Shown here: positions 3,964-21,099 of the stretch, piece after piece | Numbering within the stretch: position 1 is the first letter of the stretch | How the letters are laid out: every line of letters begins with the position of its first letter | IMG/VR virus record: IMGVR_UViG_3300005960_000002 | Coordinates: 1-28,629 of that record | Source: a virus | DNA: 28,629 nucleotides | Direction: 5' to 3' (one strand) | Position numbers and translations under genes: made by a program | The notes under the pieces: generated by a model | Databases searched by the model: none | Told to the model about the DNA's origin: nothing | What the model saw: the letters and a program-made list of their open reading frames with translations, nothing else

Positions 3964-4168
3964 GATCTAAATCGCCATTTTGTTCTTCTTGCTTTTGTTT
4001 TTCTTCTTTTATTCTAACTTCTTGCTTGTAGAACTCAATGAATGTTTGTATTTGTTCTCTTACTTGTGGATTTTGGGTTTGAAAATATTTTTTGGATAAG
4101 TCTGCTAATTTTTCATGTATGTCAGATACAGTCATGTCAGCAGTATCTTCGCTAAACGGATGAATCAT
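3938..4168 (-). CDS. Small conserved hypothetical protein, 76 aa
   Basis: The product is 76 aa, mostly helical and charged. It begins MIHPFSEDTADMTVSDIHEK, followed by a helix with QNPQVREQIQTFIEFYKQEV and an acidic tail. I recall similar short proteins next to virion genes in marine T4-like phages, but no function. Its ATG shares a base with the stop of the fibre-like gene upstream (TAATG), so it is probably co-expressed with late structural genes. A structural accessory or chaperone-like role is possible but unsupported. Confidence 0.7.
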   Translation of the reverse strand: MIHPFSEDTADMTVSDIHEKLADLSKKYFQTQNPQVREQIQTFIEFYKQEVRIKEEKQKQEEQNGDLDLDNLIKVS

Positions 4169-4773
4169 TATTCAAAGTAACCAATGTAATCTGCGAATAC
4201 AGTTGCTCCAGCGTCGAAACTAATAAATTCAAAAACATAAGTTCTTGTTTGTGGAGTATCTATAACAAATGTATTTCCTGTTCCTGACCAATCACTGCTT
4301 CTTTTTAAAGTTCCGGCACCAGCATTAGAAGCAAAAGTTATTGTTCTTTGTACTCCGTCATTGTTAATGAAGACTCTAACTTTACCTGTTTTGGTAGTTT
4401 CTGGCCATTCTGTCAATGTTAATGTAATGTCTGCGCCAATAGAGAACGATTGAAAATTACCACTACTATAATTTATATTTTGGCTTGTGTTTACTGTACC
4501 ACCAGCAAAATGACCAAAGCTGTTATCAATGAAGTTTGCGTTTTTAACAGTATTTCCTAAGAAGTCGTTAGTGCTAATAGTGCCACCAGTTGGAGGTGGT
4601 GAGTATGTTACACCTTGTGCTGTGGTTGTTTGTAGAGTTTCTATCTCGCTTTTTGCGGCTACAAAATTGTCCTTAATGACATTAAAGTTATCTCTAAAGC
4701 CTTGTGAATCATTATCTTGACCTGCTACTGGGTAATCTTTGTTTACACCTGTATCATTTATATTACTAGCCAT
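4168..4773 (-). CDS. Virion structural protein, short fibre-like, 201 aa
   Basis: The N-terminal 45 residues (YPVAGQDNDSQGFRDNFNVIKDNF) follow the same plan as the N-termini of the 232-aa, 93-aa and 2628-aa proteins in this window. That plan is a short strand, then a D/G-rich turn, then a helix with FRDNF or NNFAEL. This suggests a shared docking module on the virion. The rest is T, G, N and F rich beta structure with an aromatic C-terminus ending ADYIGYFE. The late-type box GATAAATA lies 18 nt before the ATG, and AGGAG gives the ribosome site. It is probably a tail or neck appendage; the exact location is unknown. Confidence 0.75.
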   Translation of the reverse strand: MASNINDTGVNKDYPVAGQDNDSQGFRDNFNVIKDNFVAAKSEIETLQTTTAQGVTYSPPPTGGTISTNDFLGNTVKNANFIDNSFGHFAGGTVNTSQNINYSSGNFQSFSIGADITLTLTEWPETTKTGKVRVFINNDGVQRTITFASNAGAGTLKRSSDWSGTGNTFVIDTPQTRTYVFEFISFDAGATVFADYIGYFE

Positions 4774-4774
4774 G

Positions 4775-5524
4775 CTATTCTCCTGTCATATTATTTATCT
4801 TAATTGCTGAACGTCCAGTAAAGTCTACTACGTTAAACAAAGGTTTATATGGATTTTTGACGAAATATTCGTCTACTGCCTTGCGAGATCCTTGCCAATG
4901 CCCATAATCGTCAATAATTAGCACACCGTTATTACTCAAAACAGGATACAGCCAATGTAATTCTGTTTTAGTAGATTGGTACCAATCAGTGTCTAATCTT
5001 AACACACTTATTTGGGTAGGCCTATTACTAGGATCTTTAAGTGTTTCGCACACATCTCCTTTAATAAACGTAACTGCATTTATGTCTATGCCTGCCGACT
5101 GAACACATTTCTTGACATCTTCTAAAGATGCGTAACACCAATCTACATGCGTATCTGTTTTTGTTTGATGGTATTTGACTGTTGCCATTTCCTTTGTTCT
5201 AGCATTTACATCAAATTCTGTTGGTTCAGCCATTCCTTCAAATGTATCATACATCCAAACTTTTTTGTTAGATCCCATACGTTCAAATATTTTTTTTGCT
5301 AAAATTCCGTGTCCCCCACGCCATACTCCACATTCTACAAAATCACCTGGTACGTTATTTTCAACAGCATATTTACATGCTTTAAGAGTGTTGACTAACC
5401 TTGCTACAGAAGTCATTGTAAAATAGCTTTCAAGAACATATCTTATCAGTCTTACTTCTTCTTTATCTAGTTCTACAGCTATGTTTGATAATTCTAATTT
5501 TTGAGACTTGCTAATTCCAGCCAT
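4775..5524 (-). CDS. TylF/MycF-type O-methyltransferase
   Basis: The 249-aa product matches the TylF (macrocin O-methyltransferase) family, class I SAM-dependent enzymes that methylate sugar hydroxyls. Landmarks: GDFVECGVWRGG at 60-71 (SAM-binding loop), YDTFEGMAEPTE at 92-103, DTDWY at 178-182 (metal or substrate acidic pair), and IIDDYG at 203-208. The length is normal for the family. It sits among tail genes with its own late-type box 17 nt upstream and a GGAG ribosome site, so it is likely expressed late. Methylation of a sugar on the virion or host surface is inference. Its expression with structural rather than metabolic genes is the unusual point. Confidence 0.85.
   Translation of the reverse strand: MAGISKSQKLELSNIAVELDKEEVRLIRYVLESYFTMTSVARLVNTLKACKYAVENNVPGDFVECGVWRGGHGILAKKIFERMGSNKKVWMYDTFEGMAEPTEFDVNARTKEMATVKYHQTKTDTHVDWCYASLEDVKKCVQSAGIDINAVTFIKGDVCETLKDPSNRPTQISVLRLDTDWYQSTKTELHWLYPVLSNNGVLIIDDYGHWQGSRKAVDEYFVKNPYKPLFNVVDFTGRSAIKINNMTGE
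4792..4799 (-). promoter_or_regulatory. T4-late-like promoter box GATAAATA
   Basis: One mismatch from the T4 late box TATAAATA. It is 18 nt from the ATG at 4773, inside the 3' end of the methyltransferase gene. The spacing matches the other late boxes in this window. Confidence 0.5.
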
Positions 5525-5541
5525 GTGTTACTCCAACAAAA

Positions 5542-5549
5542 TATTTATT
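5542..5549 (-). promoter_or_regulatory. T4-late-like promoter box AATAAATA
   Basis: One mismatch from TATAAATA, 17 nt before the ATG at 5524 and overlapping the stop region of the 985-aa gene. GGAG follows 6 nt before the start codon. Confidence 0.5.
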
Positions 5550-8505
5550 AGACGTTAAATTGGAAATCAGCGAATTTGATGTATTGTTCATTACTGTTAT
5601 TTTTTGTTGAGTCTATGTTATAACGATCTATTTCTATGTTTAATTTTTTAAAATCAAAACTGCTGTTGTTTATGTTAAGTAATACAGAATCTGCTTGTCC
5701 TGGTTTACAATAAACTAATGGAACTGCTAAAACAAAACCCAATTCAGCCTGTCCTGTTGTTTGTGATGTACGCATCCATAAAGGATAAAATTCTCTTAAA
5801 TTGTTACCTAATGCTCTAATGCGTTTTCTCATGTTTGTGATATTACTAATATATTTTCTTTGATCAGCACTATCACTTATTTTTATAGCGTCACTGTCTA
5901 TTTTGATTGTATTTGTAACAGGACGTAATCTTAAAGGATCGCTGTTTATACTATCATCAATATTTGCCACTACTATAACATTTCCATTTTGATCTGTTAC
6001 AGTTATTTGATTACCTGGATTGAACAATAACGGAGACGTTCTAGCAAAAATTGTAATCGTTCCTGTAGAAGCAGGAGACTTTCCATTACCGCCACGAAGT
6101 CCTATATCAAAAAACCCTTGGCCTGTTCCTACTCCTGTGTTATCATCAGTAACTTCGAATTGGATGCTATCAACTGTAACTTTTTTTGTAGTTGTTGTAG
6201 TAAACTGTTCTTTGGTTTCACCTACGTTAGGTTCTGAAGGGTCAACAAGTTCTACATATATAACTTCATAGACTGTATCGTTAGTTCCTACATTTTTTGC
6301 AACTGCTTTTTTTACTGCTCCAAATTTATATTGTTTTCTTAAATGATTTTTTGCTACGGCCCCAACAAATTCTTGAACTTCTTTTGTTTCTATTCCTGCG
6401 TATGCTAATGCTTTTATTTGATCTTGTAATCCAAAAGCAGGATCGTTTGGTCTGTATACTGACTGTGGAGGAAATATATTTGGATCAGATATAAAATTTC
6501 TAAAACTTAATCTATCAGTATTTTTCATTAATGGTATCATTGAGATACTGCTGTATAACAAATCATCTGGATCAGTTGTTGATATAGTAAACGTTCTTGT
6601 GGTAGCACTAAATCCAAATTGATCTTGTGCTGTAACTGTGAAGGTATATGATCTATCAAGTGTTGTTGTACCACCGTCAAAAGTAAATGTGCCTGTAGAC
6701 TTATCGATAGTGGTTAGTCCAGGCTTACCAACCTCTCCAAACTGTCTAACTTTTCCTTGTAATTGTCCATCAATAGCTAATGTAATTCCTGGAGGTAACT
6801 TCCCGCTATCAAGTGTATATACTAAAACAGCATTAGGAACAGTACTTGTAGCATTAACGGATAAAGTTGAAATAAAGTTTGCTCTTAAATTTCCTAAATC
6901 CGCCGCTGTATTCCATGTAATAACGCTTTCTACTTCACCTAATAATTTTACTGTGAAAGTTTTATCCTTTGCTATTACTTGGTTTGTTTCAGATGTTATT
7001 CTTTCATCGAAGTCATAGAATGACATGGTAACCACTTTGTTGGCAGTCACTGCTCCGGTAGAGTCAAAAGTTCTAAATCCTACATCTACAATACTACCTT
7101 TAAAACTAGATCGAATTAAGTCACTGTCACCTTGTTCAACTTTTGTTAAACTTTTATCAGTTGCTGTACCTACAACTCTACCATTTTTGACAACCCAAAC
7201 TGATTTATCAATTATTCCTTGTAGAGTATATTTTGAGTTATCACTAGCATCTGCTGTTGTTACAGGGACAGTATTAAAAACAATCCAACCAGTTTCGTTA
7301 TTTTGTCCTAAAAAAAGTTGTTCAGCAAAATTAAAGAAAGGAACATTTTGTTGTCCTGACCAAGTTTGCCCAACCCCTATGTTATTAAAAAATGATTGGA
7401 AAGATGTACTTGCGGCAGATCCTAACTGTCTCAATGCTTCAATAGTAAATTTGTATTCTTTGGTTACGGCAGGTTGATAAGGTACAAGTCCTGCTATTTC
7501 ACCTGTCGTTGAATCTATACTTAATCCTGGTGGTAAAGAACTTTCCGAGCCGTCGGCATTGGATTTTTTAAGGGTAAAACTTATAATTCCTTGGTTGCTA
7601 GTTGGATCATATACATCTAAAAATAAAGTCACATAGTTATTTGCTCTTCTAAATCCTAAGTCACTTGGTGTTAACCAAACAGGCGCTCTGAGAAAAGTGT
7701 TGTCTGCTGTGAATAAGCCTGTACCAATCTGCATTAAAGTATTGTCAGTTCTTAGGAAATCATCACCTACAAGATAAATTTGAAATGATCTTTTAGCAAT
7801 TACTATTCCGTCGCTGACGCTTACTGTAAAATCGTAAAATCTATTTAATTTTCTTGGACTCTGTGTAGGTATGGCATAATCATAAAAATTTGTATCGTAA
7901 TAAAAACTTGAATAACCATTAAAACTTTTTACTCCAAAATCATATGGAAATTCACCAAATGTGTTTGAGTCAAAAAAACCAGAAGCGGCTCTTTTTTCTA
8001 ACGCGAGTAAAGGTTCAACAATACCCGTTAGTTTTCCTGTTGTCATTCCAAGCTCTATACCTGGAGGTAATTCACCATCTCCGTCTGCGATGAAATATTC
8101 TAAATTATCACCTGCCGGAATATCAGGATCAATTACCTGTAGCTGAAAGTCAACTGGACTACTATCTAGTATGTAAAATTTTTGATTAGGACCTAAGGGC
8201 AAAGGACCTTGATTTGTTACCCAATTAGGAGCGTCTGCTCCATTGATTGAAATACTAAATGTTCTATCATCTATAGTATTACCTTTTCTGGCTCGCAAAA
8301 CAAACTTGAATTCCTTTAAAGATTTAACTTCATAAGGAGTTCCTACCAAACTATTATTATTTGCTATTCTTAAACCTCCAGGCAGAGAGCCACTTATCAA
8401 TGTTACACTATCAACCGTATTGATAGGCAAAGCAATAGTTTGCGTAATGCTTTCATTATATGTGCCGAGATTGTGCCCTGTGTTTACTGTCCATAGTTCA
8501 GACAT
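5548..8505 (-). CDS. Large virion structural protein with Ig-like (He_PIG-type) repeats, 985 aa
   Basis: Four units with the putative-Ig signature are visible: LPGGLRI near residue 41, LPPGIEL near 145, LPPGLSID near 327 and LPPGITL near 570. Each is followed by a G-x-x turn and alternating strands ending in FTVTAQD-like segments. Such domains are common in surface-exposed phage tail proteins and often bind carbohydrates. The last 110 residues (MRKRIRALGNNLREFYPLWM and the following strands) look like a separate conserved C-terminal domain. There is no enzymatic motif. A late-type box CATAAATA and the ribosome site TAGGAGT precede the ATG. It is probably a tail, baseplate or fibre component; the exact part is unknown. 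Confidence 0.8.
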   Translation of the reverse strand: MSELWTVNTGHNLGTYNESITQTIALPINTVDSVTLISGSLPGGLRIANNNSLVGTPYEVKSLKEFKFVLRARKGNTIDDRTFSISINGADAPNWVTNQGPLPLGPNQKFYILDSSPVDFQLQVIDPDIPAGDNLEYFIADGDGELPPGIELGMTTGKLTGIVEPLLALEKRAASGFFDSNTFGEFPYDFGVKSFNGYSSFYYDTNFYDYAIPTQSPRKLNRFYDFTVSVSDGIVIAKRSFQIYLVGDDFLRTDNTLMQIGTGLFTADNTFLRAPVWLTPSDLGFRRANNYVTLFLDVYDPTSNQGIISFTLKKSNADGSESSLPPGLSIDSTTGEIAGLVPYQPAVTKEYKFTIEALRQLGSAASTSFQSFFNNIGVGQTWSGQQNVPFFNFAEQLFLGQNNETGWIVFNTVPVTTADASDNSKYTLQGIIDKSVWVVKNGRVVGTATDKSLTKVEQGDSDLIRSSFKGSIVDVGFRTFDSTGAVTANKVVTMSFYDFDERITSETNQVIAKDKTFTVKLLGEVESVITWNTAADLGNLRANFISTLSVNATSTVPNAVLVYTLDSGKLPPGITLAIDGQLQGKVRQFGEVGKPGLTTIDKSTGTFTFDGGTTTLDRSYTFTVTAQDQFGFSATTRTFTISTTDPDDLLYSSISMIPLMKNTDRLSFRNFISDPNIFPPQSVYRPNDPAFGLQDQIKALAYAGIETKEVQEFVGAVAKNHLRKQYKFGAVKKAVAKNVGTNDTVYEVIYVELVDPSEPNVGETKEQFTTTTTKKVTVDSIQFEVTDDNTGVGTGQGFFDIGLRGGNGKSPASTGTITIFARTSPLLFNPGNQITVTDQNGNVIVVANIDDSINSDPLRLRPVTNTIKIDSDAIKISDSADQRKYISNITNMRKRIRALGNNLREFYPLWMRTSQTTGQAELGFVLAVPLVYCKPGQADSVLLNINNSSFDFKKLNIEIDRYNIDSTKNNSNEQYIKFADFQFNV

Positions 8506-8522
8506 TTTGTACTCCTATACTA

Positions 8523-8530
8523 TATTTATG
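8523..8530 (-). promoter_or_regulatory. T4-late-like promoter box CATAAATA
   Basis: One mismatch from TATAAATA, 17 nt before the ATG at 8505, within the short gap and 3' end of the preceding gene. Confidence 0.55.
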
Positions 8531-9224
8531 CTGTAGGAAGTGTACCCATATCTGCGGTAGGTAAAGCAGAAGCTGTAAATGTAGATGTTCCGTTATCAAA
8601 ATCAACACTTAAAGCGTCTACTAGGTAATCTAGTGAACTAGAAAAAGTTGTTGGAAAAGCAAGTCCTTGATCAAATGTTAGGTAAGGAGCAACGTCTTTT
8701 ATATCTCTAATATCTACTCCGTATATCTTACTTTTTATATCACTTGTGTTAATAATTTCTTTTTGTTGTCCATCTAAGTTTGCGGCTAATTTAGGTGTGG
8801 TATCAGTAAACAGGGAAGTTTCTGATGTGATAGTTATAGTTGTTCCAACTAAATTTGTTGTTACTAAATTTCCACCTGCTATTGTTAATGCTGTATTGTT
8901 AGCATCAAAAGTAGCGTTGGTATTATCAGCAAAAACTTGTAATTGAGGTAAGCCAGTTGCTGTAGAATTAATTGTAATAGTGTTATTGTCACTTGCTAAA
9001 GTTACAGCAGTACCAGCAACCAATTTTTTAAATTGCATCTCTGCGGCACTGACTTGGGCAAATACACCTTCCCCAGATGTTCCAAGATTAGCACCGGTAG
9101 TTTTTTCCGGATCTCTAGCATCTAGTTCTGCGAAGTTATTGTTTACTTTTACAAACGCTTCACGTAGGTCATCACCTGTACCATCGTTTGCTATTGTTCC
9201 TATGTTAACTGTTTGTATTGCCAT
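8526..9224 (-). CDS. Virion structural protein with shared N-terminal module, 232 aa
   Basis: It begins with the module IGTIANDGTGDDLREAFVKV then NNNFAELDA (about residues 8-36), closely matching the starts of the 93-aa and 2628-aa proteins. The middle is repetitive beta-strand sequence (TITINST, TALTIAGG, TTITITSE), typical of trimeric fibre shafts. The C-terminus is a short globular tail with DIRDIKDVAPYLTFDQG. The ATG has AGGAAAG upstream, and a weaker late-type box (GGTAAATA) lies 15 nt before it. It is likely a minor fibre or baseplate-attached protein. I do not recognise a specific T4 counterpart. Confidence 0.72.
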   Translation of the reverse strand: MAIQTVNIGTIANDGTGDDLREAFVKVNNNFAELDARDPEKTTGANLGTSGEGVFAQVSAAEMQFKKLVAGTAVTLASDNNTITINSTATGLPQLQVFADNTNATFDANNTALTIAGGNLVTTNLVGTTITITSETSLFTDTTPKLAANLDGQQKEIINTSDIKSKIYGVDIRDIKDVAPYLTFDQGLAFPTTFSSSLDYLVDALSVDFDNGTSTFTASALPTADMGTLPTA

Positions 9225-9239
9225 ATCTCTTTCCTACTG

Positions 9240-9247
9240 TATTTACC
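9240..9247 (-). promoter_or_regulatory. Weak T4-late-like box GGTAAATA
   Basis: It shares only the TAAATA core with the T4 late box but has the same 15-nt distance to the ATG (9224) as its better neighbours. Confidence 0.3.
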
Positions 9248-10844
9248 TATTCTTTTTTCTTAATCCGTATGTGTTACTTGTGTAAGGATTTACTCTATTG
9301 TATCTGTTAAACAACATTCTATTATAGCCACCACATATATCAGTTGTATCTCCATAGTTAGCATTGTTTGATTCATCTTTTAAAACTGCGAGAGCATCAT
9401 TTTCTAATTTACTTTTAAGTTGGGCAGGTGTTAAACTTGGATCTGCATGTAGATACAATGCTCCTACTCCGCATACTTGTGGACTTGCCATACTTGTTCC
9501 ACTTATGTTAGTTTGTTTGAAACTTGAATTACCAAAGTATTGTGTGTTACCAAATCTAGTTGTAGTGCTACATGAACTGATAATATTTTCACCAGCGGCG
9601 AAAATAGAAACTCCTGGTCCTGTTGTGCTGAAACTTGTTTTTCTTTCTGTATTCGCATCTTGGGGAGTACTATCTGTACAACCTACCATGTTAGCTCCTT
9701 CATCAAAAGGAGAGCTACCTCTATGATAGTAATTATTTGAACCACCACTCCAAAAAATTACATTGTCATAATCTACTCCTGGTCCAACGGAAGTGTCTGC
9801 TTTAAAACTATTATTGCCAGCCGCAATACAAATATGTACTCCGGCATCTATACAATCTTGAACATCAGCATCAACAGAAGGTACCCTTGATGGATATCTA
9901 TAAGCAAAACTTCTATAGTATGGATAGAATCCATAAGTATCTCTATGGTATGCTGTTGTAGAGTTCCAACCTGCTGTGCTTGAGTTATAAGTTACTCCTC
10001 TATAGACATAGCTTTCTATGTTGCTAAAACTACTTCCTATTGATCCACTGTAACCCCAACTAGCATTTACAATGGTCGGACGTTTAAATCCTGTCTTTGG
10101 ATCTACTGGTTTGTTTTGATGCCAACCTTTGATTACATCAAAGCAAGAATTTACACTAATACCAGTGCCTGAATCTCCACTGCCTTCAAGGCCATTTACT
10201 TTTACACTATAAACTCTTGCTCCAGGAGCCCAACCAAAATTTAATCCTGTCGCTGTTCCTCCGCAATGAGTCCCGTGTCCGTCGTAATCTCTATAATGGT
10301 TAGCACTTTGTGATCCAGTTAATCCTGATTCAGCATACCAGTCTATAAGTTGTACTCTTGATACTCCGTTGGCATCATTAAATTCAGGATGGTCTACTTG
10401 TAGTCCACTATCTTGTATTACAATATCAACACCAGTGCCGTCCATTGAATAAGGTCTGTCATAAGTTGTACCTAATGAAGTAGAGGTTCCATATTTGTTT
10501 TCTGTGAAACTGTGTATTATTTTACCCCAGTCTCTATAATCGCCCGAATCAGAAGATGACTTGTTAAAATTAGCTGTTTGAATAGCATCATATCCTATTT
10601 CAATATCATCCCTATCTTCTGGACGTAGCTGTACATCAGTCACTCTACTATCACTGCGTAAAGCAACTGCTTCAGCATCTGTAAGAGCGTAGTGCGTGTT
10701 TCTTGTTGATAAAGCTCTATTATCAGCAACGTCTACAGTTCTATTTGGAATATCTCCTGCTCCAGTAGAAGCAATCATTTCTTGATTAAATTGTGCGTAG
10801 TCAACACCTTTGTTTAAGGTAACAATATATTCTTTTTCACTCAT
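9243..10844 (-). CDS. Subtilisin-like serine protease (peptidase S8), virion-associated
   Basis: The 533-aa product has the full S8 catalytic set: D145 in VIQDSGL, H190 in DGHGTH, the oxyanion N344 in AAGNN, and S451 in SGTSMASP. Residues 1-75 (EYIVTLNKGVDY, then ALTDAEAVALRSDSRVTDVQ) look like an I9-type propeptide, so the enzyme may be autoprocessed. There is no signal peptide. It lies inside the tail operon between a fibre-like gene and a 45-aa membrane protein, suggesting a structural or maturation protease. It could instead help degrade host surface protein. The ATG shares a base with the upstream stop, and AGGA precedes it. Similar proteases exist in other marine T4-like phages, as I recall. 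Confidence 0.9.
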   Translation of the reverse strand: MSEKEYIVTLNKGVDYAQFNQEMIASTGAGDIPNRTVDVADNRALSTRNTHYALTDAEAVALRSDSRVTDVQLRPEDRDDIEIGYDAIQTANFNKSSSDSGDYRDWGKIIHSFTENKYGTSTSLGTTYDRPYSMDGTGVDIVIQDSGLQVDHPEFNDANGVSRVQLIDWYAESGLTGSQSANHYRDYDGHGTHCGGTATGLNFGWAPGARVYSVKVNGLEGSGDSGTGISVNSCFDVIKGWHQNKPVDPKTGFKRPTIVNASWGYSGSIGSSFSNIESYVYRGVTYNSSTAGWNSTTAYHRDTYGFYPYYRSFAYRYPSRVPSVDADVQDCIDAGVHICIAAGNNSFKADTSVGPGVDYDNVIFWSGGSNNYYHRGSSPFDEGANMVGCTDSTPQDANTERKTSFSTTGPGVSIFAAGENIISSCSTTTRFGNTQYFGNSSFKQTNISGTSMASPQVCGVGALYLHADPSLTPAQLKSKLENDALAVLKDESNNANYGDTTDICGGYNRMLFNRYNRVNPYTSNTYGLRKKNR

Positions 10845-10981
10845 TATATAAATCCTAAAGCGTAAGCAATACCCATTTCAATTCCTAACAATAACATAAA
10901 ACCTATAAGGGTAAAAGTTATTGCCATAGGTAAGAACATAACATCTTTCCAAGTACGTTTTCTTGTACAACAATCACTCAT
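10844..10981 (-). CDS. Small membrane protein, 45 aa
   Basis: The product begins MSDCCTRKRTWKDV and continues with one long hydrophobic stretch (about residues 15-44, MFLPMAITFTLIGFMLLLGI). That makes one, possibly two, membrane segments with a basic N-terminus. AGGAG lies about 7 nt before the ATG, and the stop overlaps the protease ATG as TAATG. That packing strongly suggests a real gene. Its place directly before a virion protease hints at a late role at the envelope, but nothing in the sequence says which. Confidence 0.7.
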   Translation of the reverse strand: MSDCCTRKRTWKDVMFLPMAITFTLIGFMLLLGIEMGIAYALGFI

Positions 10982-10990
10982 TTATAACTC

Positions 10991-12916
10991 CTAGTGTAAA
11001 TCAACCCAAGCACCATTGGCATAACCTTGGAACTTGTTAGTAGTAGTATTATAAATTGTATCTCCGTTACCTGCTGTTAAGGCATCTCTTTGGGTAGTAG
11101 TGAAACTTGCCAATCTCAATGGACTATTAGTTATTTTAACTTGATCCTGTGCTATAAGTTCTATTGAACTAGCACTATCTATCTGAGGTGTACCTACTCC
11201 TGAACTTTCAAAACTGTCTGCTGTAAATCTTTGAGCAGTTAGATTTCCGTCAACAGTTAAGTCACTGCTCATTCTCACACTTGGTGTCATAACAATTTGT
11301 GAGCTATCGTCTGTGTCAATTACACTTGAGCTTAATGTAAAGTTACCAATTGAAGTGCCACCTGTTCCATTCTCCCATTTAGAAGTAGAACTGTTATATT
11401 TTAATACTTGGCCGTTAGCAACACTCGTTATGTTTACATCATTTAAGCTGTTGATACTTTCTGCTGTTATACCAGCTATGAAGCCAGCACCATTAGTAAG
11501 TTCATTTGTATTTGATGGAATAGTCGGCTTATTTGTAATTGTGGAGGTTGTGTAATCTATGCTTACCCCAGTTAGATTAGCAAAAGGAATACTCGTAATG
11601 TTTGTACCAGTTCCCCATAAATTATCGGCATAAACATTTGTCCATTTTAAAGTATTTGATCCTAAATTATATGTGCTATCAGCACCAGGAGAAACATTTC
11701 CAAAACTTACGCTATTGGTTGTTTCTGATCCTGCTGTGGTAACTTGGGTTAATGTAATTGAATCTAAGTTGGCACCACTTCCGTAATAATTATTAGCTTG
11801 TACATCACCTCCTACATCTAAAGTTTTTGTTGGACTTGTTTTGTAAATACCAATCCTGCTTGAACCTGTATCGATTTTAAATGCTGAAATTGTTCCAGCA
11901 ATAGGTTTCACTTTTATTTCAAAGTCTTGTTCATTTACTAAATTTTGTAATACTACATTTCCGCCTGTGATTCCTAATGATACTTTGCTTATTGAGCTTC
12001 CGCCAATCTGTAATCCGTTATCGTCATTGATTGTAATAGATCCATTTTGTGTGTAGCTTTGATTAGAACTTATAGCATCTGTAATACCGTAACCAGATAA
12101 AGTTGTAGGAGTTCCTGTTAACGAACTAAACTGACTATCAAATAAAGTTGGTTTATTTGTTAAGTTAGCATAATTTAAATAGTAAGATCCATCAAACCCA
12201 TCTAGTGTATCTGCGTTTAGGCCTGAGCCTCCTGTTGTAATATCATCTGCTGGTGCCCATTTACCACCGTCCCATTTTAAAACTTGTCCTGTTGCTGGAG
12301 GATTAGAAATTGTGTCCACATCAGCTAAATCACTTATGTCATCTACCAAAGTAGGTTTGTTTATAAGACTAGTATAACTTCCTGTAGTTGCCACTGTGGC
12401 AAAACTAGGTGTTCCAACAATCTCACTATAATTTACGCTTCCGTTTACCCACGCCGCTCCACCATCAGTATTGCCTGTGGTTGAATATTTAATTACTTGG
12501 TTGTTTGCTAATCCGTCAAAGTTAGTTGCTGGAGCAAGTCCTCCACTACCTCCACTACTTGTTCCTGTATTTGTTATAGTGATTGTTCCGTTTAGATCAT
12601 CATATACAATATCAATACCTGTTCCTTCTCTAAGGACAGCATTTACTCTATCGTCTACTCTTTCATTTGTAAAATATAAATTAGTGCCTTCAGGTAGCTC
12701 ACCTGTGTTTGTGGCAACAGTTGGTTTATTTGTTAAATCTGTGTAACTGCCGCTGAAAGGATTGTAACTAACATTATTAATAGTAAGTCCAGTTGCTGAT
12801 ATATTTCCAGCACCAACTATACCTGATCCTGTAAGATCGAGATTATCACCTGACGGTAATTCTTTTAGCTTGTTTTGATCATCTCTGTCAACTATAATTG
12901 GAAATCTATTTGCCAT
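10991..12916 (-). CDS. Tail fibre-like protein with NKPT repeats, 641 aa
   Basis: It contains at least four copies of the fibre motif Y-x-x-L-x-NKPT (near residues 65, 187, 256 and 464). It also has ELPEGTNLYFTNERVDDRV near 75 and many short T/N/G-rich strands. This motif set is typical of long phage fibres with beta-helical shafts. The last 35 residues (TTQRDALTAGNGDTIYNTTT to the end) form a common fibre C-terminal element. No enzymatic site is seen. It starts only 15 nt after the 93-aa gene, with GAGGA upstream, and has no late-type box, so it is probably read with the giant fibre gene. A receptor-binding role is likely from type, not proven. Confidence 0.8.
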   Translation of the reverse strand: MANRFPIIVDRDDQNKLKELPSGDNLDLTGSGIVGAGNISATGLTINNVSYNPFSGSYTDLTNKPTVATNTGELPEGTNLYFTNERVDDRVNAVLREGTGIDIVYDDLNGTITITNTGTSSGGSGGLAPATNFDGLANNQVIKYSTTGNTDGGAAWVNGSVNYSEIVGTPSFATVATTGSYTSLINKPTLVDDISDLADVDTISNPPATGQVLKWDGGKWAPADDITTGGSGLNADTLDGFDGSYYLNYANLTNKPTLFDSQFSSLTGTPTTLSGYGITDAISSNQSYTQNGSITINDDNGLQIGGSSISKVSLGITGGNVVLQNLVNEQDFEIKVKPIAGTISAFKIDTGSSRIGIYKTSPTKTLDVGGDVQANNYYGSGANLDSITLTQVTTAGSETTNSVSFGNVSPGADSTYNLGSNTLKWTNVYADNLWGTGTNITSIPFANLTGVSIDYTTSTITNKPTIPSNTNELTNGAGFIAGITAESINSLNDVNITSVANGQVLKYNSSTSKWENGTGGTSIGNFTLSSSVIDTDDSSQIVMTPSVRMSSDLTVDGNLTAQRFTADSFESSGVGTPQIDSASSIELIAQDQVKITNSPLRLASFTTTQRDALTAGNGDTIYNTTTNKFQGYANGAWVDLH

Positions 12917-12931
12917 ATTTAATCATCCTCT

Positions 12932-13213
12932 CTATGTCAGGTTCGCTATTCTTGTTTTGAAATCAGCAAAGTCTGTGCTTGCCGCCGCCACAGTTTTTAA
13001 AGTTTGTAGACTTACATAACCTGGTATTACTCCATTTACAGCATCTACTAATAATGTAGAATCATCTGCGAACACTGAACCAACAACATCTCTTTTAGTA
13101 TTAGATACATCAAGTTCAGCAAAGTTTTTGTTTATCTTATCGAACGCAACTCTTAACGGATCACCATCGCCTTTGTTAGCACTTGTTCCTATGTTTATAG
13201 TTAGAATAGCCAT
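12932..13213 (-). CDS. Short virion protein with shared N-terminal module, 93 aa
   Basis: Nearly the first half is the module INIGTSANKGDGDPLRVAFD then KINKNFAELD (to about residue 36), a clear relative of the starts of the 232-aa and 2628-aa proteins. The remaining 55 residues hold two weak strands and a helical end (LKTVAAASTDFADFKTRIAN). It looks like a docking module with almost no fibre attached, perhaps an adaptor or the remnant of a longer fibre. GGGAG precedes its ATG, which overlaps the stop of the giant gene (TAATG). Confidence 0.72.
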   Translation of the reverse strand: MAILTINIGTSANKGDGDPLRVAFDKINKNFAELDVSNTKRDVVGSVFADDSTLLVDAVNGVIPGYVSLQTLKTVAAASTDFADFKTRIANLT

Positions 13214-16200
13214 TATACTCTCCCTATCACAACTTCAACAATGCCATGTCCGTCATCATCTTTTGTGCCCACTGCTTTACCAATTATTGTTCCTATGCCT
13301 GGTATATTGTTTACCATACCGTATCCTGGTATCGCACTTGTTACAATCATATCACCTTTTTTAACTGTACCTATTACTTTACAAGGAGTTCTACCTTGTA
13401 GCGCCAACGGCGTGACATGTTCACCTTCTAACTGGCTGTTCATTAAGTGTGCCGGATTCTCTGAAACAACACCTGCTACCTTAGTATCACCTTTGATATT
13501 TGTTGTAGTAAGTTCTTGTTCTCCGCCAAATATAAGAACCGTGCCCACTTCGTAATCATTATCAGCTAGATAGTTTTCTGCCAAGTCAGCGTATTTTGCT
13601 GAAGTTGCCAAACCATCAAGTGCTGTAGCATAAACTGTAGAATATCTTAAAGAAGATGTTCCTAAAGCATATCCATTATTACTTGAAGGGCTTGCCGCTG
13701 TTTGTGTAAATTTAACAGCCGCCACATTGTTGTTTGCTATAATTGCTATTTCACCTGCGGCTGTAAATCCTGTACCTGCTCCTACAGCTATACCTGTAGA
13801 AGATGATCCTTTTTCTCCTGGAGCTTCTATGAATGAAGTGTAAGCCCAATCACTTGCCAGTCTTGGAGAATTCTGTGTAGCATCACTTGGATCTCCATAA
13901 CTACTATTCTTTTGGAAGAAAGATGCCGCTATATCTGTGTTACCTAATTGTACACTTCCTGGGAATGTTGTTGTAGTATTACTTGCCACAGATCCAACAG
14001 TATCAAATACCTTAGCACCACCAGGTGTTTTAAGAGTCATTGTTAAGTTGGTTTGATCTAAGATGTCGAAGTTATCAAGTTTAAATTTCTGTGCGTCTAT
14101 GCTACCATCTGTGCCAGTTTGTACTATTCTAGAAGCAACACCAGTAGTTGTAAATTTACTGTATGTGTCAATTAAATCATCGATGCTAACTGCTACGGTG
14201 TCTGCTGTGCCTGAGGTAATATTTGCCAACACAGTTTTTTGTGCCATGTCAGGTAAGTCTGAATAATCAACACTACCTTCCTTTAGAGTAACAAAACCGT
14301 TTGTAACAGTAAAGTCACCTGAGTCAAAACTAGCTAGTCCTAAATCACTTTGAGCAATACCTGTAGCATTAGCTCTGGTAGTTGCCGCATTCATTGCCAA
14401 CTTGCTTTGAGCTATACCAGCGTTTGTGTTTACATCCGCATTTATAATAGAACCTGCGGTAATTGAGAACGTAGCAATATTTCCTGCTACACTAATTCCA
14501 ATATCACCTGCCGGAGTAACGTTGTCATAACTAGATCCGTCCCACGCTAGGAAATCATTAGTCTGTCTATTAGCAATATTAGCACCAATAGCTTCTGTAC
14601 CAAATGGAGTTCTAGCATCAACATATGATTTAGTTGTCGCATCCTGTTGATTGGTTGGATCCGCCATATTGAATATCTTATTGGTTCCACCAGCATTTAA
14701 GTTTCCTGTTAAAGGTGTTGTACCGTCTCTTGCTAAAGCACCAGGTCCTATGGTTCCAACTGTTTGTAAAGATCCTGTTCTATCAAAGTGCAATCTTCTT
14801 GTCAAGAATCCCTCAGCGGCAAATTCCGTAGGCACAGCCGACGGATCAGCATCTGCCATTGTGTCATCGTTACTAAATTCAGTAATTCTAACACCTTGTT
14901 TAAATCCTAGTCCATCTAAGTTACTAATAGCTATAGAAGCCGCAAAAGTAACAGTACCTGTTCCTTGGTCAACACTAAAGAACTTACCAACTCTAAAGAA
15001 TCCGTCTTGGTCTGTAGAAGCAAAGAATACTCTACCTTTTCCTCTTTCATTAACCTCATTGGCTTGTGTAGCCGCGTTTACTGGTTCACCGTAAATAATG
15101 CTTGGATAGTTGGTAGTGTTAAATCCACCAGTACCAATTTTATCAAAGTCATGTCCGTTAGCTCTTAGTGTTGAAATACCGACTGTAATATTTGCCGCTT
15201 CATTTGAAGCTAATGATAAAGTAAGTGTTATAGCAGTGGCTCCTCCAGCACTATAAACTTTTTTAGCAATACCTGAACCAGTGTATAAAGTATTATCACT
15301 GTTTATGTTAGAAGCCGCAACATCTGTCAAATTAATTGTGGCAAAAGTTGTTCTGTCCGTGTAATTAGACACTTGGTGGAGTTTGCCTCCCCAAGCAAAT
15401 ATCATATCGTTATTATTAATTCTAGCAATACCTGCCGCTGTTAGTTTTTCAATAGCAATAACAACGTCACCAACTGTTGCTCCCATTGTTGTACCAGCAC
15501 CAGCGTATGTGTTGTTTACAGCTTCTGTTTGATTTACTGTCAGGTTTAGATGTTTGAATCCTGAATCAAAAACAATTTGGAATCTATCAGCCGCTAGTGC
15601 ACTATTGTCAGAATCTTGATTGTTAAAACTAATTGTTCTATAAACTTGATCTAAGTTTTCATCAAATATCAAAGCTGTTGACGGTCTAATACTTGTAACG
15701 CCTGATACTCCTGAGAACAAGTGGTTTTTGTTCATTCTCATCATTACGTATGGAGAAGCATCTGATGCCAAGTTTACATTATGGTCACCTGTTATGGCAC
15801 TTGCTAATCCAGTATCACCTGATATGTTACATCTGTAAATTGTTTGATTAGCACCTTTACGCCCTGTAGGACCTGTAGCACCTGTATATCCTCCTGAGTT
15901 TGAAGTAGGAACAGATAATGCCGCTACCGCTGTGACCTCATATGTGTTTAATGCTGTAATGTTTCCGCTTCCATCCCTTGTGTAAACGTCAATCAAACTG
16001 TTAGGATATGGATGATAATCACAATCATACAAGTGTATAGTGTTTACACCTGCCGCATGTGAAATAGCACCAAAGCCATATGTGTTACTAGCATCATTGT
16101 AAACCTTAGCAGGCTGTTGCATAGTTCTTAAGGAAGTAACTTGGTCAACTGTTTCGTTAGGATCTGATCCTGCCGCAACCAAACCAAAGTTACCATTTGC

Positions 16201-19200
16201 GTTAGAACAGTTTAGAGCTCTAATCTCGGAACCGTTGTTACTGAAAAACGCTATGTGGTTGTAATATGTGAATGTTGAAACTTGTTCTGAAAGACCTGCG
16301 TTGTTAACAAATAATCCATAGCCTAAGTCATTAACCTGTGTATAGTCATTTGCCAACATTGATCTATTACCAGCAGTCTGAATGAATATAGCTGTACCAC
16401 TTCCTGGGATAGCATCTGTATATCCATTACCACTGTTTGAAAGTTTGTTAATTAAAAGTTTAGCTGTACCTGCTCCTCCATCATATTCAGAAATAGCATC
16501 AACTTGATATCTGACACCATTAATAAAGAATGGAGCAGGAGTTTGCGGTTTTCTAATCCTTAAACCTGTGCCAGCCGCTGATTGAACATTCAATGTATAG
16601 TTGTCATCTTTACTTGTAATAACTGTTTCTAAGTTACCTGAGAAACCATCAATAAACATACCACCTCTAAATGCTTGTTTATTAACACTACCTGAGAATG
16701 ATCCACAAACCTGTGTATAAGGAGATTTGATAAGGACCTGACCTGCTGGATCAAGTACCTGAGCAAATCCTCCATGTCCTTGGAATGACATGTTTGCTAG
16801 TCTTGTAGCGTCATTCATTAAGAATACGTCCATTTGGTCGTTACGTTTAGCTACACTAGTTGAGTCTGCTGGATCTGTTAAGTAGTGATATCCATAATTA
16901 ACAGTTTTCTTAACATGCCAAGCACCTGAGCTAATTGTGTTTAAGTTTGGTAAAATATCAACTGTTAATGTAACATTGAAATCACTTCCGCCATCAGCAT
17001 TTGAAATTAGACCAACTGCTCCGTTATCTGTGTAGAACCAAGCACCGTCCCAAGCAACTGGAGCAATATTGTCTGCTGGAGTTACAGTAATAGTACCACC
17101 TGCTTCATTTATTCCTGTTATGGTAATATCTTGTGCCGTAGCAATGTCAGATCCAGTAAAGTCTGTAATTTTTAAATTATCTAAAAGTTTATCTCTGTAA
17201 AAATAAGATTTTACCCAAGGTGATTGTGATATTCTAGGTGCTGGTCTTATTTGACAACGTCTAAAGTCTGAACCTTTGATTGATACGTTTTCTGGAACCT
17301 TGATAGGATAGTCTTCATAGTAAATACCGGATTCAACATGAATACAGATTTGTTTTTCTTTTGTTCCATTACCATATTCTAGTTCTTCACCAATTCTAAA
17401 TTCTTTAGGTTCAACCAATACTACTTCTACTTCGTCATAAGCAACATTACCTAAATCTACACCACTTGTATATTTTACAATCCTACCTCTTGCTCCGGTA
17501 GTTTTACCTACAATAATTTTTCCTGGAAGTATATCTACATTGCTGTTTATACCTTGATCAGTATAATAGTTTGATCCACCATTACTAAATTGAATCTTGT
17601 ATGTGCTACCTTCAACTACTGTGTAAGTATCTACTGCTGTGAAGCCGTTTGTTAAAATATCTAGGATAATATCAAACTGGTTATCTAATGCGTTTTTAAT
17701 TGTATCAGATACTGTTGTGAGAGTACTATCTAAATATTGTGGAATGTCTGTTGAAAATTCTCCTGGATATTCTTTGATTCCAGTATTACATTCAAATACG
17801 ATACCATCTAATTGAACAACATTACCTGTAGATAATCCGTGTGTGGTTGTAGTTGTTATCAAACCTTTTCCGGTTACGTTATCATAAGCAAAATTGTTTA
17901 TCGCAAACTGTGTATTTCCAAAAGTAACAGTACCACCTCTGATGTAAGTATGGATTGTATTTGAAGTACCTACAGCAACTTGGAATTGTGTGCCTGATAA
18001 ATTAGCACTTTCAACTGTAAATAATCTTGATTGCCTTTTTAAGTCTGTATTCGAAACAACGCTTCTAACATAAGATTTTGCTTTCGTAATAGCCGCAAGT
18101 GTTTCGGTCTTTTGACTTATTCTTGCCTTTGCTCCGCTAGGTGTGCTGAAATATCTCTTGGCGGCTTGTAGTGCGTTAAAGTTTGAATTTGTTCCGTTCC
18201 TTATATCGATAATCATACCATCGATAATAAGTCCTAAATCTCTTTCACATGTATTATTTGCTTTTTCTGGTTGTACTGGACCAGGCACTTTTCCTAATCC
18301 ATTAGCAATCACATCTACAATCAGTTCTGTAAGAGTGTTCGCTCTTCCAGGAATATCTTTGTTACCAGTTCCATAATCTGCGTAAATTGGTTGTGGGTAA
18401 TATGTATTACTTACTGTTGGTGCTGTACAAGATAGGTAGATGTCAGCTAATTCAACTTTGTTTCCTGCTACAAAATTATGGTTAGCTGAAGTTGTTATTG
18501 TAGCATAACCCGTTGTGTTACTGTAATTGAAACCAGTGATTGTGTTACTTTCTGAGTAATACTTGACAGCATTTGTTCTTGCTCCGACAAAAGTATGTAC
18601 ACTTGTATCAGAAGATATACCTACATTCACTGTAATTGTTGTACCGCCTACTGCCGTAATAGGTAAAGCTGTATTGTATGCTGGATCACTGCTAGGCGAT
18701 GATGTTACAGATTCTTTTCTAGGATAAGAATGTAATGTAGCATTGTTATCTTTGGCACATGTAAATGTAAAACTGTTTGGTTCTATTTCAATTGAGTTTG
18801 AAGTAGTAAGGGAATGGTTGCCTATTGTAATAACCATGTCTCCAGTTGAAGGATTATAAGTTGCTCCTGTTGGAGAAAATTCAGTTAGGTTTCCTTTTAT
18901 TGTACCACCACTTACATAAGTGTGTCCGTACTTGCTAGGACCAACATAAACTTGTAATTGATTTGATGTAGGAGCTGTTCCTAAGAAGCTTGTGTTTTGT
19001 ACTGTGAATTTATAACAGTTTGCTTGACTAACAAGTTCTGGATATACTTTTTGCTGTGTCGAACCTTCGTATGTACAAGAAACATTTACACCAGTCAACT
19101 GTACTGTATTACCTGCTGATAGTCCATGTGTTGTAGTTGTGACAACATCAGCAAAACCTGTTGTGTAATCATATGTGAATGTGCTTACGTTAAGTTGTGT

Positions 19201-21099
19201 TCCGTCTGATTTAGTTACCAACCCACCATTGACATAAACATTCGCGTATGACGATGTACCAATGTAAAATCTGAAACCGGTTCCGGTTAAGTTAGCCGCA
19301 TTTACCTGGAAGTATCCTTGTTTTGTAGGATAAGCTGTTCCAGTTAAAATGTAATCCTTAACTAAATCTCTAGCAAATTCGATTGCGGCATTTGTTTGGG
19401 CTATTTGGTTGACAGTATTACCTGCGTTACTTGTATTTTTGTTTACAGCATTTACAGCACCAGCTAGATAACTTGAAGCTATTCTACGTGTTTCAATGTT
19501 TCCGCCTCTGGCTAAATCATTTTCCCAAGCATCAACAATGTATCCTACATCTCTTTTACATTTTGCTGAACTGTATTTGAATCCTGTAAAGTTAGCAGTA
19601 CCATCACTATAGCTTACAGTTGCTCCTGTGTTAATTTGATAATTAATCCAGGCTGTGACTTCTTCTTGTATAAATTTTTTATTTTTAAATAACAAACTTT
19701 CTGTGTTTGTGTTAATGACATTAGTATCAAAGAAACTGTGTGTAGGAAAATTATCTTTTACATAGTCTACAACCGATTTTTGTACAAACTTTTTACTTCC
19801 TTGTAAATATTTTATTGCACTTGATGCGGCTGTGTTAGGTGTTTTAGTTTCTGACTTTGTGACTAATGAAATACCATCACCTTCATTAAAAGTAATAGTT
19901 TGTCTATAAGCACCAGGCTCTATGGGTGCTGACTCCATTATCTCTTGTGCTTTTAATGCCGCGGCTTTTAAACTGCCAAAGGCATAACTCAAACCTCTTC
20001 CTTCAAAACCAACTGGAGTGTTAGCTTGTGTATCATCACCTTGTTTTGTTACAAAAAGATCTTCTGTACTTGCGTAGGAAGAATTATCAACATAAAGTTT
20101 TGATGCCGCTTGTCTATCTTCTATAGGGCCTGTAGTCCCTTGTAGATAACCAGGATGGTCTGAAAGATATAAAGGTCCTGCTAATTCATCTCCCTGTCTT
20201 CTGACTGAAGCATTTCTTGGCATGACCTCATCAACTCTATAATTTCCATATAAATCTTCATTGTAACTTTGATCTTTAATTACATCTGTGCCTGTTACGG
20301 CAGTCGTTGCTCCTAAACCAATATTGACTTTGACTCTTGATAGATCGTCATCATTTTGTGCTTCTGTTTTAGTTGTGTGTAAGCTCAATTGATCGGAAGA
20401 AACAAATCTAATAAAATAATCTGTGTTATTTGTCAATCCGTTTGGTGCTGTATTTGTAGTAGAATATTTCCATTGTGTACCATTAAAGCTGTTATCGAAT
20501 CCATGATTAGATATAACAACGTTACCTGATCTGTATTCAGTAATTGTTTGTGTGTATTCTGAATCATTAGTTGGTTCAGATCTGGCATAAACAGATTTAT
20601 TAGTTTGTGTTATTGTATGGGGTGCGTAGTTTTTATCTTGATATTTTTTATCAGTAACAATATCGTCTATTGTAATTTGTGAAGCATGAGTTTGATTAAA
20701 TTCTGCCACAGCCGCAAGAGACGTGTTAATTTTTCCTATTGAGTAAACAGCATTACCACTTAAAGGTCCACCTAGTATAGGACTAGTGTCAGCGTTAATA
20801 TTAGCACCAGTATTTGTTATTGTAATATTAGTAGCACTTGTGTTATCAATTGATATTCCTGTACCACCTGTCAATGTTTTTTGTATTAATTCTGTTCCAG
20901 TAGTGTTTCCTATAAGCAAACCATTTGGAGTAATAGCTGTTGGTGTATCACTTAATGCTGTAAAGCTGATGGTTCCGCCTTGTCCAAATACGGCGTAAAG
21001 TTCTGTAAAGTTTTCGTTAGCCTTTTTAAACGCTTCACGAATACTATCACCAGTTCCGTCGTTACCTTCAACCCCTAAATAAATATCTTGTCTAGCCAT
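13213..21099 (-). CDS. Giant tail fibre or virion protein, 2628 aa
   Basis: The N-terminus (LGVEGNDGTGDSIREAFKKA then ENFTELY, to residue 35) is the shared attachment module. Two related helical segments, CKRDVGYIVDAWENDLARGG near 514 and CERDLGLIIDGMIIDIRNG near 950, flank three of four repeats of about 80-90 aa. The repeats lie at about 603-686, 709-796, 816-904 and 1033-1113. A beta-helix-like region follows (about 1220-1700), then a short collagen-like GATGPTGRKG near 1740. The last 100 residues (YADLAENYLADNDYEVGTV and the following strands) form a distinct domain seen at the ends of phage fibres. It is vaguely like self-cleaving G2-type C-termini, but I see no proof of cleavage. It is probably the main host-binding fibre. 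Confidence 0.85.
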   Translation of the reverse strand: MARQDIYLGVEGNDGTGDSIREAFKKANENFTELYAVFGQGGTISFTALSDTPTAITPNGLLIGNTTGTELIQKTLTGGTGISIDNTSATNITITNTGANINADTSPILGGPLSGNAVYSIGKINTSLAAVAEFNQTHASQITIDDIVTDKKYQDKNYAPHTITQTNKSVYARSEPTNDSEYTQTITEYRSGNVVISNHGFDNSFNGTQWKYSTTNTAPNGLTNNTDYFIRFVSSDQLSLHTTKTEAQNDDDLSRVKVNIGLGATTAVTGTDVIKDQSYNEDLYGNYRVDEVMPRNASVRRQGDELAGPLYLSDHPGYLQGTTGPIEDRQAASKLYVDNSSYASTEDLFVTKQGDDTQANTPVGFEGRGLSYAFGSLKAAALKAQEIMESAPIEPGAYRQTITFNEGDGISLVTKSETKTPNTAASSAIKYLQGSKKFVQKSVVDYVKDNFPTHSFFDTNVINTNTESLLFKNKKFIQEEVTAWINYQINTGATVSYSDGTANFTGFKYSSAKCKRDVGYIVDAWENDLARGGNIETRRIASSYLAGAVNAVNKNTSNAGNTVNQIAQTNAAIEFARDLVKDYILTGTAYPTKQGYFQVNAANLTGTGFRFYIGTSSYANVYVNGGLVTKSDGTQLNVSTFTYDYTTGFADVVTTTTHGLSAGNTVQLTGVNVSCTYEGSTQQKVYPELVSQANCYKFTVQNTSFLGTAPTSNQLQVYVGPSKYGHTYVSGGTIKGNLTEFSPTGATYNPSTGDMVITIGNHSLTTSNSIEIEPNSFTFTCAKDNNATLHSYPRKESVTSSPSSDPAYNTALPITAVGGTTITVNVGISSDTSVHTFVGARTNAVKYYSESNTITGFNYSNTTGYATITTSANHNFVAGNKVELADIYLSCTAPTVSNTYYPQPIYADYGTGNKDIPGRANTLTELIVDVIANGLGKVPGPVQPEKANNTCERDLGLIIDGMIIDIRNGTNSNFNALQAAKRYFSTPSGAKARISQKTETLAAITKAKSYVRSVVSNTDLKRQSRLFTVESANLSGTQFQVAVGTSNTIHTYIRGGTVTFGNTQFAINNFAYDNVTGKGLITTTTTHGLSTGNVVQLDGIVFECNTGIKEYPGEFSTDIPQYLDSTLTTVSDTIKNALDNQFDIILDILTNGFTAVDTYTVVEGSTYKIQFSNGGSNYYTDQGINSNVDILPGKIIVGKTTGARGRIVKYTSGVDLGNVAYDEVEVVLVEPKEFRIGEELEYGNGTKEKQICIHVESGIYYEDYPIKVPENVSIKGSDFRRCQIRPAPRISQSPWVKSYFYRDKLLDNLKITDFTGSDIATAQDITITGINEAGGTITVTPADNIAPVAWDGAWFYTDNGAVGLISNADGGSDFNVTLTVDILPNLNTISSGAWHVKKTVNYGYHYLTDPADSTSVAKRNDQMDVFLMNDATRLANMSFQGHGGFAQVLDPAGQVLIKSPYTQVCGSFSGSVNKQAFRGGMFIDGFSGNLETVITSKDDNYTLNVQSAAGTGLRIRKPQTPAPFFINGVRYQVDAISEYDGGAGTAKLLINKLSNSGNGYTDAIPGSGTAIFIQTAGNRSMLANDYTQVNDLGYGLFVNNAGLSEQVSTFTYYNHIAFFSNNGSEIRALNCSNANGNFGLVAAGSDPNETVDQVTSLRTMQQPAKVYNDASNTYGFGAISHAAGVNTIHLYDCDYHPYPNSLIDVYTRDGSGNITALNTYEVTAVAALSVPTSNSGGYTGATGPTGRKGANQTIYRCNISGDTGLASAITGDHNVNLASDASPYVMMRMNKNHLFSGVSGVTSIRPSTALIFDENLDQVYRTISFNNQDSDNSALAADRFQIVFDSGFKHLNLTVNQTEAVNNTYAGAGTTMGATVGDVVIAIEKLTAAGIARINNNDMIFAWGGKLHQVSNYTDRTTFATINLTDVAASNINSDNTLYTGSGIAKKVYSAGGATAITLTLSLASNEAANITVGISTLRANGHDFDKIGTGGFNTTNYPSIIYGEPVNAATQANEVNERGKGRVFFASTDQDGFFRVGKFFSVDQGTGTVTFAASIAISNLDGLGFKQGVRITEFSNDDTMADADPSAVPTEFAAEGFLTRRLHFDRTGSLQTVGTIGPGALARDGTTPLTGNLNAGGTNKIFNMADPTNQQDATTKSYVDARTPFGTEAIGANIANRQTNDFLAWDGSSYDNVTPAGDIGISVAGNIATFSITAGSIINADVNTNAGIAQSKLAMNAATTRANATGIAQSDLGLASFDSGDFTVTNGFVTLKEGSVDYSDLPDMAQKTVLANITSGTADTVAVSIDDLIDTYSKFTTTGVASRIVQTGTDGSIDAQKFKLDNFDILDQTNLTMTLKTPGGAKVFDTVGSVASNTTTTFPGSVQLGNTDIAASFFQKNSSYGDPSDATQNSPRLASDWAYTSFIEAPGEKGSSSTGIAVGAGTGFTAAGEIAIIANNNVAAVKFTQTAASPSSNNGYALGTSSLRYSTVYATALDGLATSAKYADLAENYLADNDYEVGTVLIFGGEQELTTTNIKGDTKVAGVVSENPAHLMNSQLEGEHVTPLALQGRTPCKVIGTVKKGDMIVTSAIPGYGMVNNIPGIGTIIGKAVGTKDDDGHGIVEVVIGRV

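Follow-up and report, generated by a model that had tools for sequence, protein, structure and literature searches.

In bacteriophage T4, the baseplate proteins gp9 and gp10 have a common N-terminal segment (PF07880, T4_gp9_10_N); the module is known, as is the fact that two T4 proteins share it. As described in PMC3004832, gp9 binds a domain of gp7 through its N-terminal domain and takes the long fibre with its C-terminal domain, and gp10, which is 23% identical to gp9 over the first 200 residues, is found elsewhere on the baseplate. Conserved N-terminal domains also organise several receptor-binding proteins in the branched fibres of RaK2-like and phiKp24-like jumbo phages, according to PMC10253068 and PMC9700779, and the Ackermannviridae tailspike TSP4 of phage CBA120 combines an anchor with the domains XD1-XD2-XD3. 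Here we analyse IMG/VR virus record IMGVR_UViG_3300005960_000002, a stretch of 28,629 nucleotides (the window), in which four proteins of 201, 232, 93 and 2628 amino acids (aa) had been proposed, from the sequence alone, to begin with a similar unit by which one docking site, probably on the baseplate, holds several different fibres (the original prediction). Our analysis makes it likely that three of these proteins instead carry gp9/gp10-type plugs, one for each of three places on the baseplate wedge, and that the 201-aa protein is a further part with another plug.

Results

The four open reading frames (ORFs) lie where the original prediction had placed them, all on the minus strand. Judged by sequence comparison, the N-terminal unit of the 232-, 93- and 2628-aa proteins, which we call M1, is the N-terminal segment of T4 gp9 and gp10. 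It spans residues 1 to about 42 in all three carriers, whose residues 1-42 are encoded at positions 9099-9224, 13088-13213 and 20974-21099 (minus strand), respectively. A profile consisting only of T4 gp9, T4 gp10, ACG-2014d gp9, a Mosig fibre and KVP40 gp10 (the last entered twice, as two loci gave the same gene) picked exactly 3 of the 143 six-frame ORFs of the window, namely the 232-aa (E 1.6e-12), 93-aa (E 9.2e-9) and 2628-aa (E 8.3e-11) proteins; the next-best ORF reached E 0.84, and the top score among 2860 shuffled ORFs was 6.4 bits. When the first 60 aa of each protein were used, phrog_677 ('baseplate wedge tail fiber protein connector', the annotation of T4 gp9) matched the 2628-aa (E 1.5e-12), 232-aa (E 7.4e-10) and 93-aa (E 2.1e-7) proteins, and phrog_958 ('baseplate wedge subunit') matched them in the same order at E 4.5e-7, 3.5e-6 and 4.2e-3. 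The curated cut-off of PF07880 is 25 bits; the 232-aa protein passed it with 26.5-26.6 bits and the 2628-aa protein with 26.6 bits when its first 60 aa were used, the latter being absent from the listing of the whole-protein scan. Among solved structures, a profile of 25 modules, T4 itself included, matched residues 2-41 of T4 gp10 (E 1.8e-17) and residues 6-47 of gp9 (E 4.1e-14), and the segment of the 2628-aa protein alone matched residues 2-41 of T4 gp10 at E 1.4e-4.

The residues common to all three M1 modules are MA, G9, G15, G17, D18, R21, A23, F24, K26, N28, N30, F31, E33 and L34. The consensus GT-N-D-G given earlier is slightly off at its start, as the 2628-aa protein has GVEGNDGTGD and the 93-aa protein NKGDGD. 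The module is N-terminal throughout: in a further set, 78 of 79 copies begin with methionine at profile position 1 and the remaining one has a methionine within 5 residues. Full-length likeness to T4 gp9 or gp10 was not found in the three carriers, where matches to phrog_677 and phrog_958 were mostly confined to the first 34-50 residues; the longest phrog_958 match, to residues 3-85 of the 232-aa protein, spans just positions 2-79 of 606. Behind M1, the 93-aa protein has only about 50 residues.

Gene order was compared in 14 related genomes, comprising the cluster from 13 contigs and from two pieces of G001, a 199.8-kilobase (kb) relative. A giant fibre (position L), a variable accessory protein (position A), a protein of about 230 aa (position C) and a protein of the 201-aa type follow one another in this order in 10 of the 14 relatives and in the window (11 contigs); G018, G020 and G021 hold A and C only, their contigs being too short upstream to judge. 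In the window, position L is taken by the 2628-aa protein (13213-21099), which matches phrog_9851, phrog_17885 and phrog_5342 ('tail fiber protein'), position A by the 93-aa protein (12932-13213), position C by the 232-aa protein (8526-9224), and the 201-aa gene lies at 4168-4773 (all minus strand). Lengths in the cluster set range from 2220 to 3004 aa for L and from 186 to 213 aa for the 201-aa type, and proteins sorted by motif range from 92 to 996 aa for A (36 distinct) and from 214 to 239 aa for C (67 distinct). Because of these ranges, we regard the position A protein as a variable appendage and the C and 201-aa types as constant small parts that are hardly fibres. The idea of several different fibres thus stands for the 2628-aa protein, which is clearly one, but not for the other three, one variable accessory and two short proteins of constant length. 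G026, G039, G042 and G043 contain M1-headed open frames of 4087-4762 aa, giant fibres longer than that of the window. A common body for the position A proteins was considered and rejected: all 36 are linked in BLAST via short repeats (GSVF.DDSTLLVDAVN, by eye), but their C-terminal ends differ.

The M1 profile was run on whole records in sets of 29, 13 (4 of them repeats from the first set) and 30, altogether 68 different records. In the first set, 20 of 29 records matched with at most three copies each (T4 two, ACG-2014d and Mosig one each, P-SSM2 and Atu_ph07 none). KVP40 and Sf-FS3 had two copies and S-H38 and S-B43 one in the set of 13, in which this whole-record search found no M1 in S-PM2, HTVC008M, RaK2, PA5oct, Phosso or the four repeat records. 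The set of 30, mostly contigs picked for an L-type module and all short records that may be fragments, contained three copies in 14 records, two in 8, one in 7 and none in 1. The module of the 201-aa type, M2, was present as a single copy in 18 of the 29 and 1 of the 13 records. Two relatives with whole records of 156.6 kb and 199.8 kb have three M1 and one M2 each, and the number of copies per genome, which the original prediction had proposed to count, reaches the same three plus one.

M1 modules group by gene position. Among 41 modules from 15 contigs, copies at one position in different genomes had an identity of 0.70, and copies at different positions reached 0.47 across genomes and 0.48 inside a single genome. 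For 40 of 41 modules, the closest module occupied the same position; the odd one out was L166_A, whose one-residue gap defeats an ungapped count. In a tree of the modules, the C (15 rows, support 99/96), A (14 rows, 99/94) and L (12 rows) copies each make up one side of a branch, with four modules of named phages outside all three clades, and 0 of 500 shuffles were as clustered by position. C and A were sorted in the tree by length and the motif GDDLR, a procedure that is not circular in effect because these labels agree with gene position in all 14 clusters, C being the last M1 gene. The three position clades, with no exchange across the 15 contigs, argue against a single docking site for several fibres, as does the placement of T4 gp9 and gp10 at different sites of the baseplate in the account of PMC3004832. 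Conservation was also higher in the module than in the rest of the protein, in 66 of 66 genome pairs for L (identity 0.80 versus 0.49), 73 of 91 for A (0.63 versus 0.47), 104 of 105 for C (0.71 versus 0.41) and 90 of 91 for M2 (0.65 versus 0.42); no pair was excluded for likeness above 97% in both module and body, and the M2 protein of G015 (L155) was left out because the stretch ended within it. Together with the match to the gp9/gp10 N-terminus and the N-terminal position, this conservation bears out the proposal that M1 is an attachment module of baseplate type.

The 201-aa protein begins with a separate module, M2 (residues 1-49; 4627-4773, minus strand), of the type YPVAGQDNDSQGFRDNF, which was delimited from an alignment of 18 sequences and a structure model and follows the same plan as M1, an extended stretch and then a helix. 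The protein gave no PF07880 match and fell outside the named-phage M1 profile, so that of the four proteins said to have a common unit, the profile unites the 232-, 93- and 2628-aa proteins but not this one. Its model (mean predicted local distance difference test score, pLDDT, of 81) comprises an extended part (residues 1-23), a helix (24-49) and a beta-sandwich (85-200; 4174-4521, minus strand) with pLDDT mostly above 90. Using VIA-align, the sandwich was superposed on residues 78-179 of CBA120 TSP4 (Z 8.8, root-mean-square deviation (rmsd) 2.8, 95 residues aligned), where XD1 is placed at 80-178 by the authors of PMC8825819, and on residues 49-153 of chain FA of 9f4b (Z 8.6, rmsd 2.9, 96 aligned), which is gp10 of a T4-like Klebsiella phage with its own M1 at residues 2-41 (same sequence as 9f4a_FA). 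The XD1-like fold was also matched in 9ny6 (capsid spike, Z 8.9), 24qj (tailspike, Z 7.2) and the bacterial proteases 6o38 (Z 6.6) and 4dny (Z 6.4); the first chain outside the XD1-bearing set scored Z 3.6. As modelled, residues 85-200 have the XD1 fold, which follows M1 in gp10, and the protein as a whole is thus built like gp10, a plug followed by XD1, although its plug comes from a different sequence family. TSP4 has the same fold and the same order of module and XD1, but its anchor is a triple beta-helix in the description of PMC8825819, whereas the 201-aa chain ends after XD1 and its model contains no XD2 or XD3. Searches of PDB sequences with the 201-aa protein and with the M2 profile gave no credible match. 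The only named phages with a relative of the protein were Atu_ph07 and Phosso (470-490 kb), in which M2 heads proteins of 876 aa and 930 aa, respectively, the latter with a C-terminus of the tail-fibre family phrog_9017. M2, being found on these long proteins too, is therefore itself a reused N-terminal module. In both phages, an annotated protease gene (S8 family peptidase in Phosso) directly precedes the M2 protein (L141:8240-14631; L170:4132-10793); in the window, an S8 protease gene (9243-10844) stands directly before the M1-bearing 232-aa gene.

It had been said beforehand that the idea of one shared unit would fall if the 201-aa form did not join the profile, and it does not join. At E<1e-3, the cross-search found 0 ORFs common to 166 M1 and 105 M2 ORFs; at E<10, the M1 profile gave weak matches to 12 of the 105 M2 ORFs, and the M2 profile matched 0 of the 166 M1 ORFs. 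Attempts to join the two modules by cross-search, by hhalign with controls and with enlarged sets were suggestive but not significant. M2 may still be a far relative of M1 within one plug superfamily, in which case the original prediction would be right in substance; we hold this to be possible though rather doubtful, and it is independent of the other alternatives considered below. In its favour, hhalign aligns R, F at +3 and N-F at +9/+10 and ranks M2 first of 24 non-M1 N-terminal families of G001, the best non-M1 ORF for the M1 profile among 13,969 ORFs (which are not independent, as the set includes overlapping loci) is an M2 ORF with 8.5 bits, and the common extended-helix plan and the XD1 body of the 201-aa protein point the same way. 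However, P was only 0.031 with the first profiles, 0.027 with 160 M1 and 51 M2 sequences and 0.01-0.03 overall, scores as high were obtained by 20 and 25 of 200 column shuffles in the first and enlarged comparisons, respectively, and full-length family profiles of the 232- and 201-aa proteins showed no relation (probability 0.5%).

Further tail proteins of the relatives carry gp9-type or other modules. The window encodes a 641-aa tail protein without M1 (10991-12916, minus strand; phrog_9627 and phrog_32829, 'tail fiber protein') as a member of the cluster. Its positional counterpart in G001 is an 802-aa protein (165416-167824; L153:5416-7824, minus strand), in which a gp9-family C-terminal part (phrog_677 217-409, E 3.9e-34) is preceded by a different N-terminus that lacks M1. 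ACG-2014d gp9, in contrast, combines M1 and this part in one chain, so that the gp9 domains look as if they had been split and shuffled. Three consecutive tail proteins of G001 (60911-66364; L148:911-6364) have in common a further N-terminal unit, about 85 aa long, GKNY.GYGE..NENFLHLLENF...GQLWYDTT, which occurs in RaK2-like and other jumbo phages as well, at four places in PA5oct; the first of the three also contains a tail collar domain and matches Gp10_C weakly. Two adjacent G001 proteins (10642-13705) have a common N-terminus by eye, RISGPLL.ANL.

The S8 (subtilisin-type) protease of the window lies between positions A and C (9243-10844, minus strand; PF00082, E 4.6e-30). Its phage relatives were found in 40 records, mostly of Synechococcus and Prochlorococcus phages, with 27-36% identity among the 30 matches listed, and in 64 IMG/VR loci with 37-100% identity. 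The record would derive from a large contractile-tailed phage, probably marine. No tRNA genes were detected in the 28.6-kb window, and a 985-aa neighbour protein had no match among named phages. The 249-aa gene between the 201-aa and 985-aa genes (4775-5524) resembles, by eye, a sugar O-methyltransferase; a 173-aa protein adjoining the tail genes (3406-3927) matches phrog_11127 ('DNA polymerase') over its full length; and the neighbouring proteins at 27362-27808 and 27778-28602 both match the C-terminal end of phrog_21471, a common C-terminal domain.

Discussion

The arrangement that we favour, separate plugs with separate places, suggests the following mechanism. A plug consists of about 18 extended residues followed by an amphipathic helix (modelled at residues 19-36 of the 232-aa protein), through which three chains would pair, and the 232-aa protein is probably an intertwined trimer. 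By homology, the trimer would be held through its plugs on a wedge protein in the way in which T4 gp9 is seated on gp7. The plug at position L would carry the giant fibre, that at A a variable appendage that could shrink to about 50 residues and that at C a short part of constant size. A fourth small part would be the 201-aa protein, probably on another seat, because its plug belongs to another sequence family. Three different seats are to be expected, since the signature of a position is retained throughout the contigs, and the position clades and the conservation of the module favour separate position-specific sockets over one shared site. A more far-reaching version, which we put forward tentatively and would not back at even odds, is a wedge with three sockets for gp9/gp10 plug lineages, each kept since before the phage group radiated, and a fourth for M2, with socket A serving as an exchange port at which cargo of about 50-950 residues varies and the plug stays fixed.

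Several observations weigh against separate plugs on a wedge. The 93-aa protein fails the PF07880 cut-off with 14.4-15.7 bits, although it carries the gp9/gp10 segment outside this family limit because the named-phage profile and phrog_677 both find it. The model of the 232-aa protein, a helix at 19-36 and then strands, is of low confidence (mean pLDDT 65), and its fold search gave no PDB match at E <= 0.001. The module tree is based on 42 columns, leaving its deeper forks unsure, and the L clade is supported by just 82/81. In G023, L and C are present and A was not seen. XD1 alone does not put the 201-aa protein on the baseplate, because a capsid spike and bacterial proteases carry the fold. 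Finally, no member of the gp7 family was recognised in the scanned parts of G001: phmmer with T4 gp7, gp8, gp11 and gp12 gave no match to this relative, and a 4906-aa protein beside the gp6-like gene (4816 aa scanned) matches phrog_10938 and phrog_460 and not phrog_964 (gp7).

Just one M1 protein might sit on the baseplate, the others being attached to it or to one another in the manner of the CBA120 tailspikes and of the hyperbranched fibres of other jumbo phages. The clustering of the L, A, C and M2 genes is in line with this, and branched complexes built with gp10-like domains are described in PMC8825819, PMC10253068 and PMC9700779; yet such branching uses XD2/XD3 platforms, none of which was seen among the modelled proteins (to which the giant fibre does not belong), and the M1 segment is part of the anchoring end in gp9, which makes this arrangement improbable. 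RaK2, PA5oct, Atu_ph07 and Phosso differ from our phages in that all are without M1, and of these only Atu_ph07 and Phosso have M2. Slightly less probable still is the original prediction's own reading, in which one kind of seat, repeated or shared, accepts any M1 protein, so that plugs are interchangeable and fibres differ. The three M1 modules do share G9, G15, G17-D18, R21, A23-F24, K26, N28, N30-F31 and E33-L34, and T4 likewise has two proteins with the segment, but interchangeable plugs sit poorly with position-specific clades that show no exchange and have modules more alike within a position than between positions of one genome, or with the different places of gp9 and gp10 reported in PMC3004832. 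That M1 is a mere trimer-starting helix with a conserved cap and no specific contact is very unlikely. Its modelled part is indeed a helix of about 18 residues, but conserved residues are also found in the cap and the extended stretch (G9, G15, G17-D18), and a generic coiled coil would have no need of the signature that marks each position.

Separate plugs thus remain our preferred explanation, and they set these phages beside T4 with clear differences. Both have the N-terminal segment of about 40 residues on more than one protein per phage, but here there are three carriers in place of the two of T4, their bodies are a giant fibre, a variable appendage and a short constant protein, and in G001 the gp9 C-terminal domain is on another protein without M1. 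Synechococcus phage ACG-2014d gp9 carries an M1 that is nearest to position L (mean alignment score 99, compared with 89 and 84), but as a single copy per genome that is joined in one chain to the gp9 body. A known T4 part is thus reused more often than in T4, each copy keeping its own place. In the open-access literature searched, which is weak evidence of absence, we met neither three M1 carriers in one phage, one of them heading a fibre of 2,200-3,000 aa, nor a protein combining M2 with XD1; the motif strings NDGTGD, DNDSQGFRDNF and GTGDSIR were not found there either.

The gain is modest because the module has long been known. Several 'hypothetical' tail genes of a widespread group of uncultured phages nevertheless become named parts, namely baseplate plugs, a giant fibre and a variable appendage, and the signature of each position would provide a sequence rule that predicts the seat taken by a fibre. 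If this is true, phages would add appendages by copying plug and seat and not by sharing one seat.

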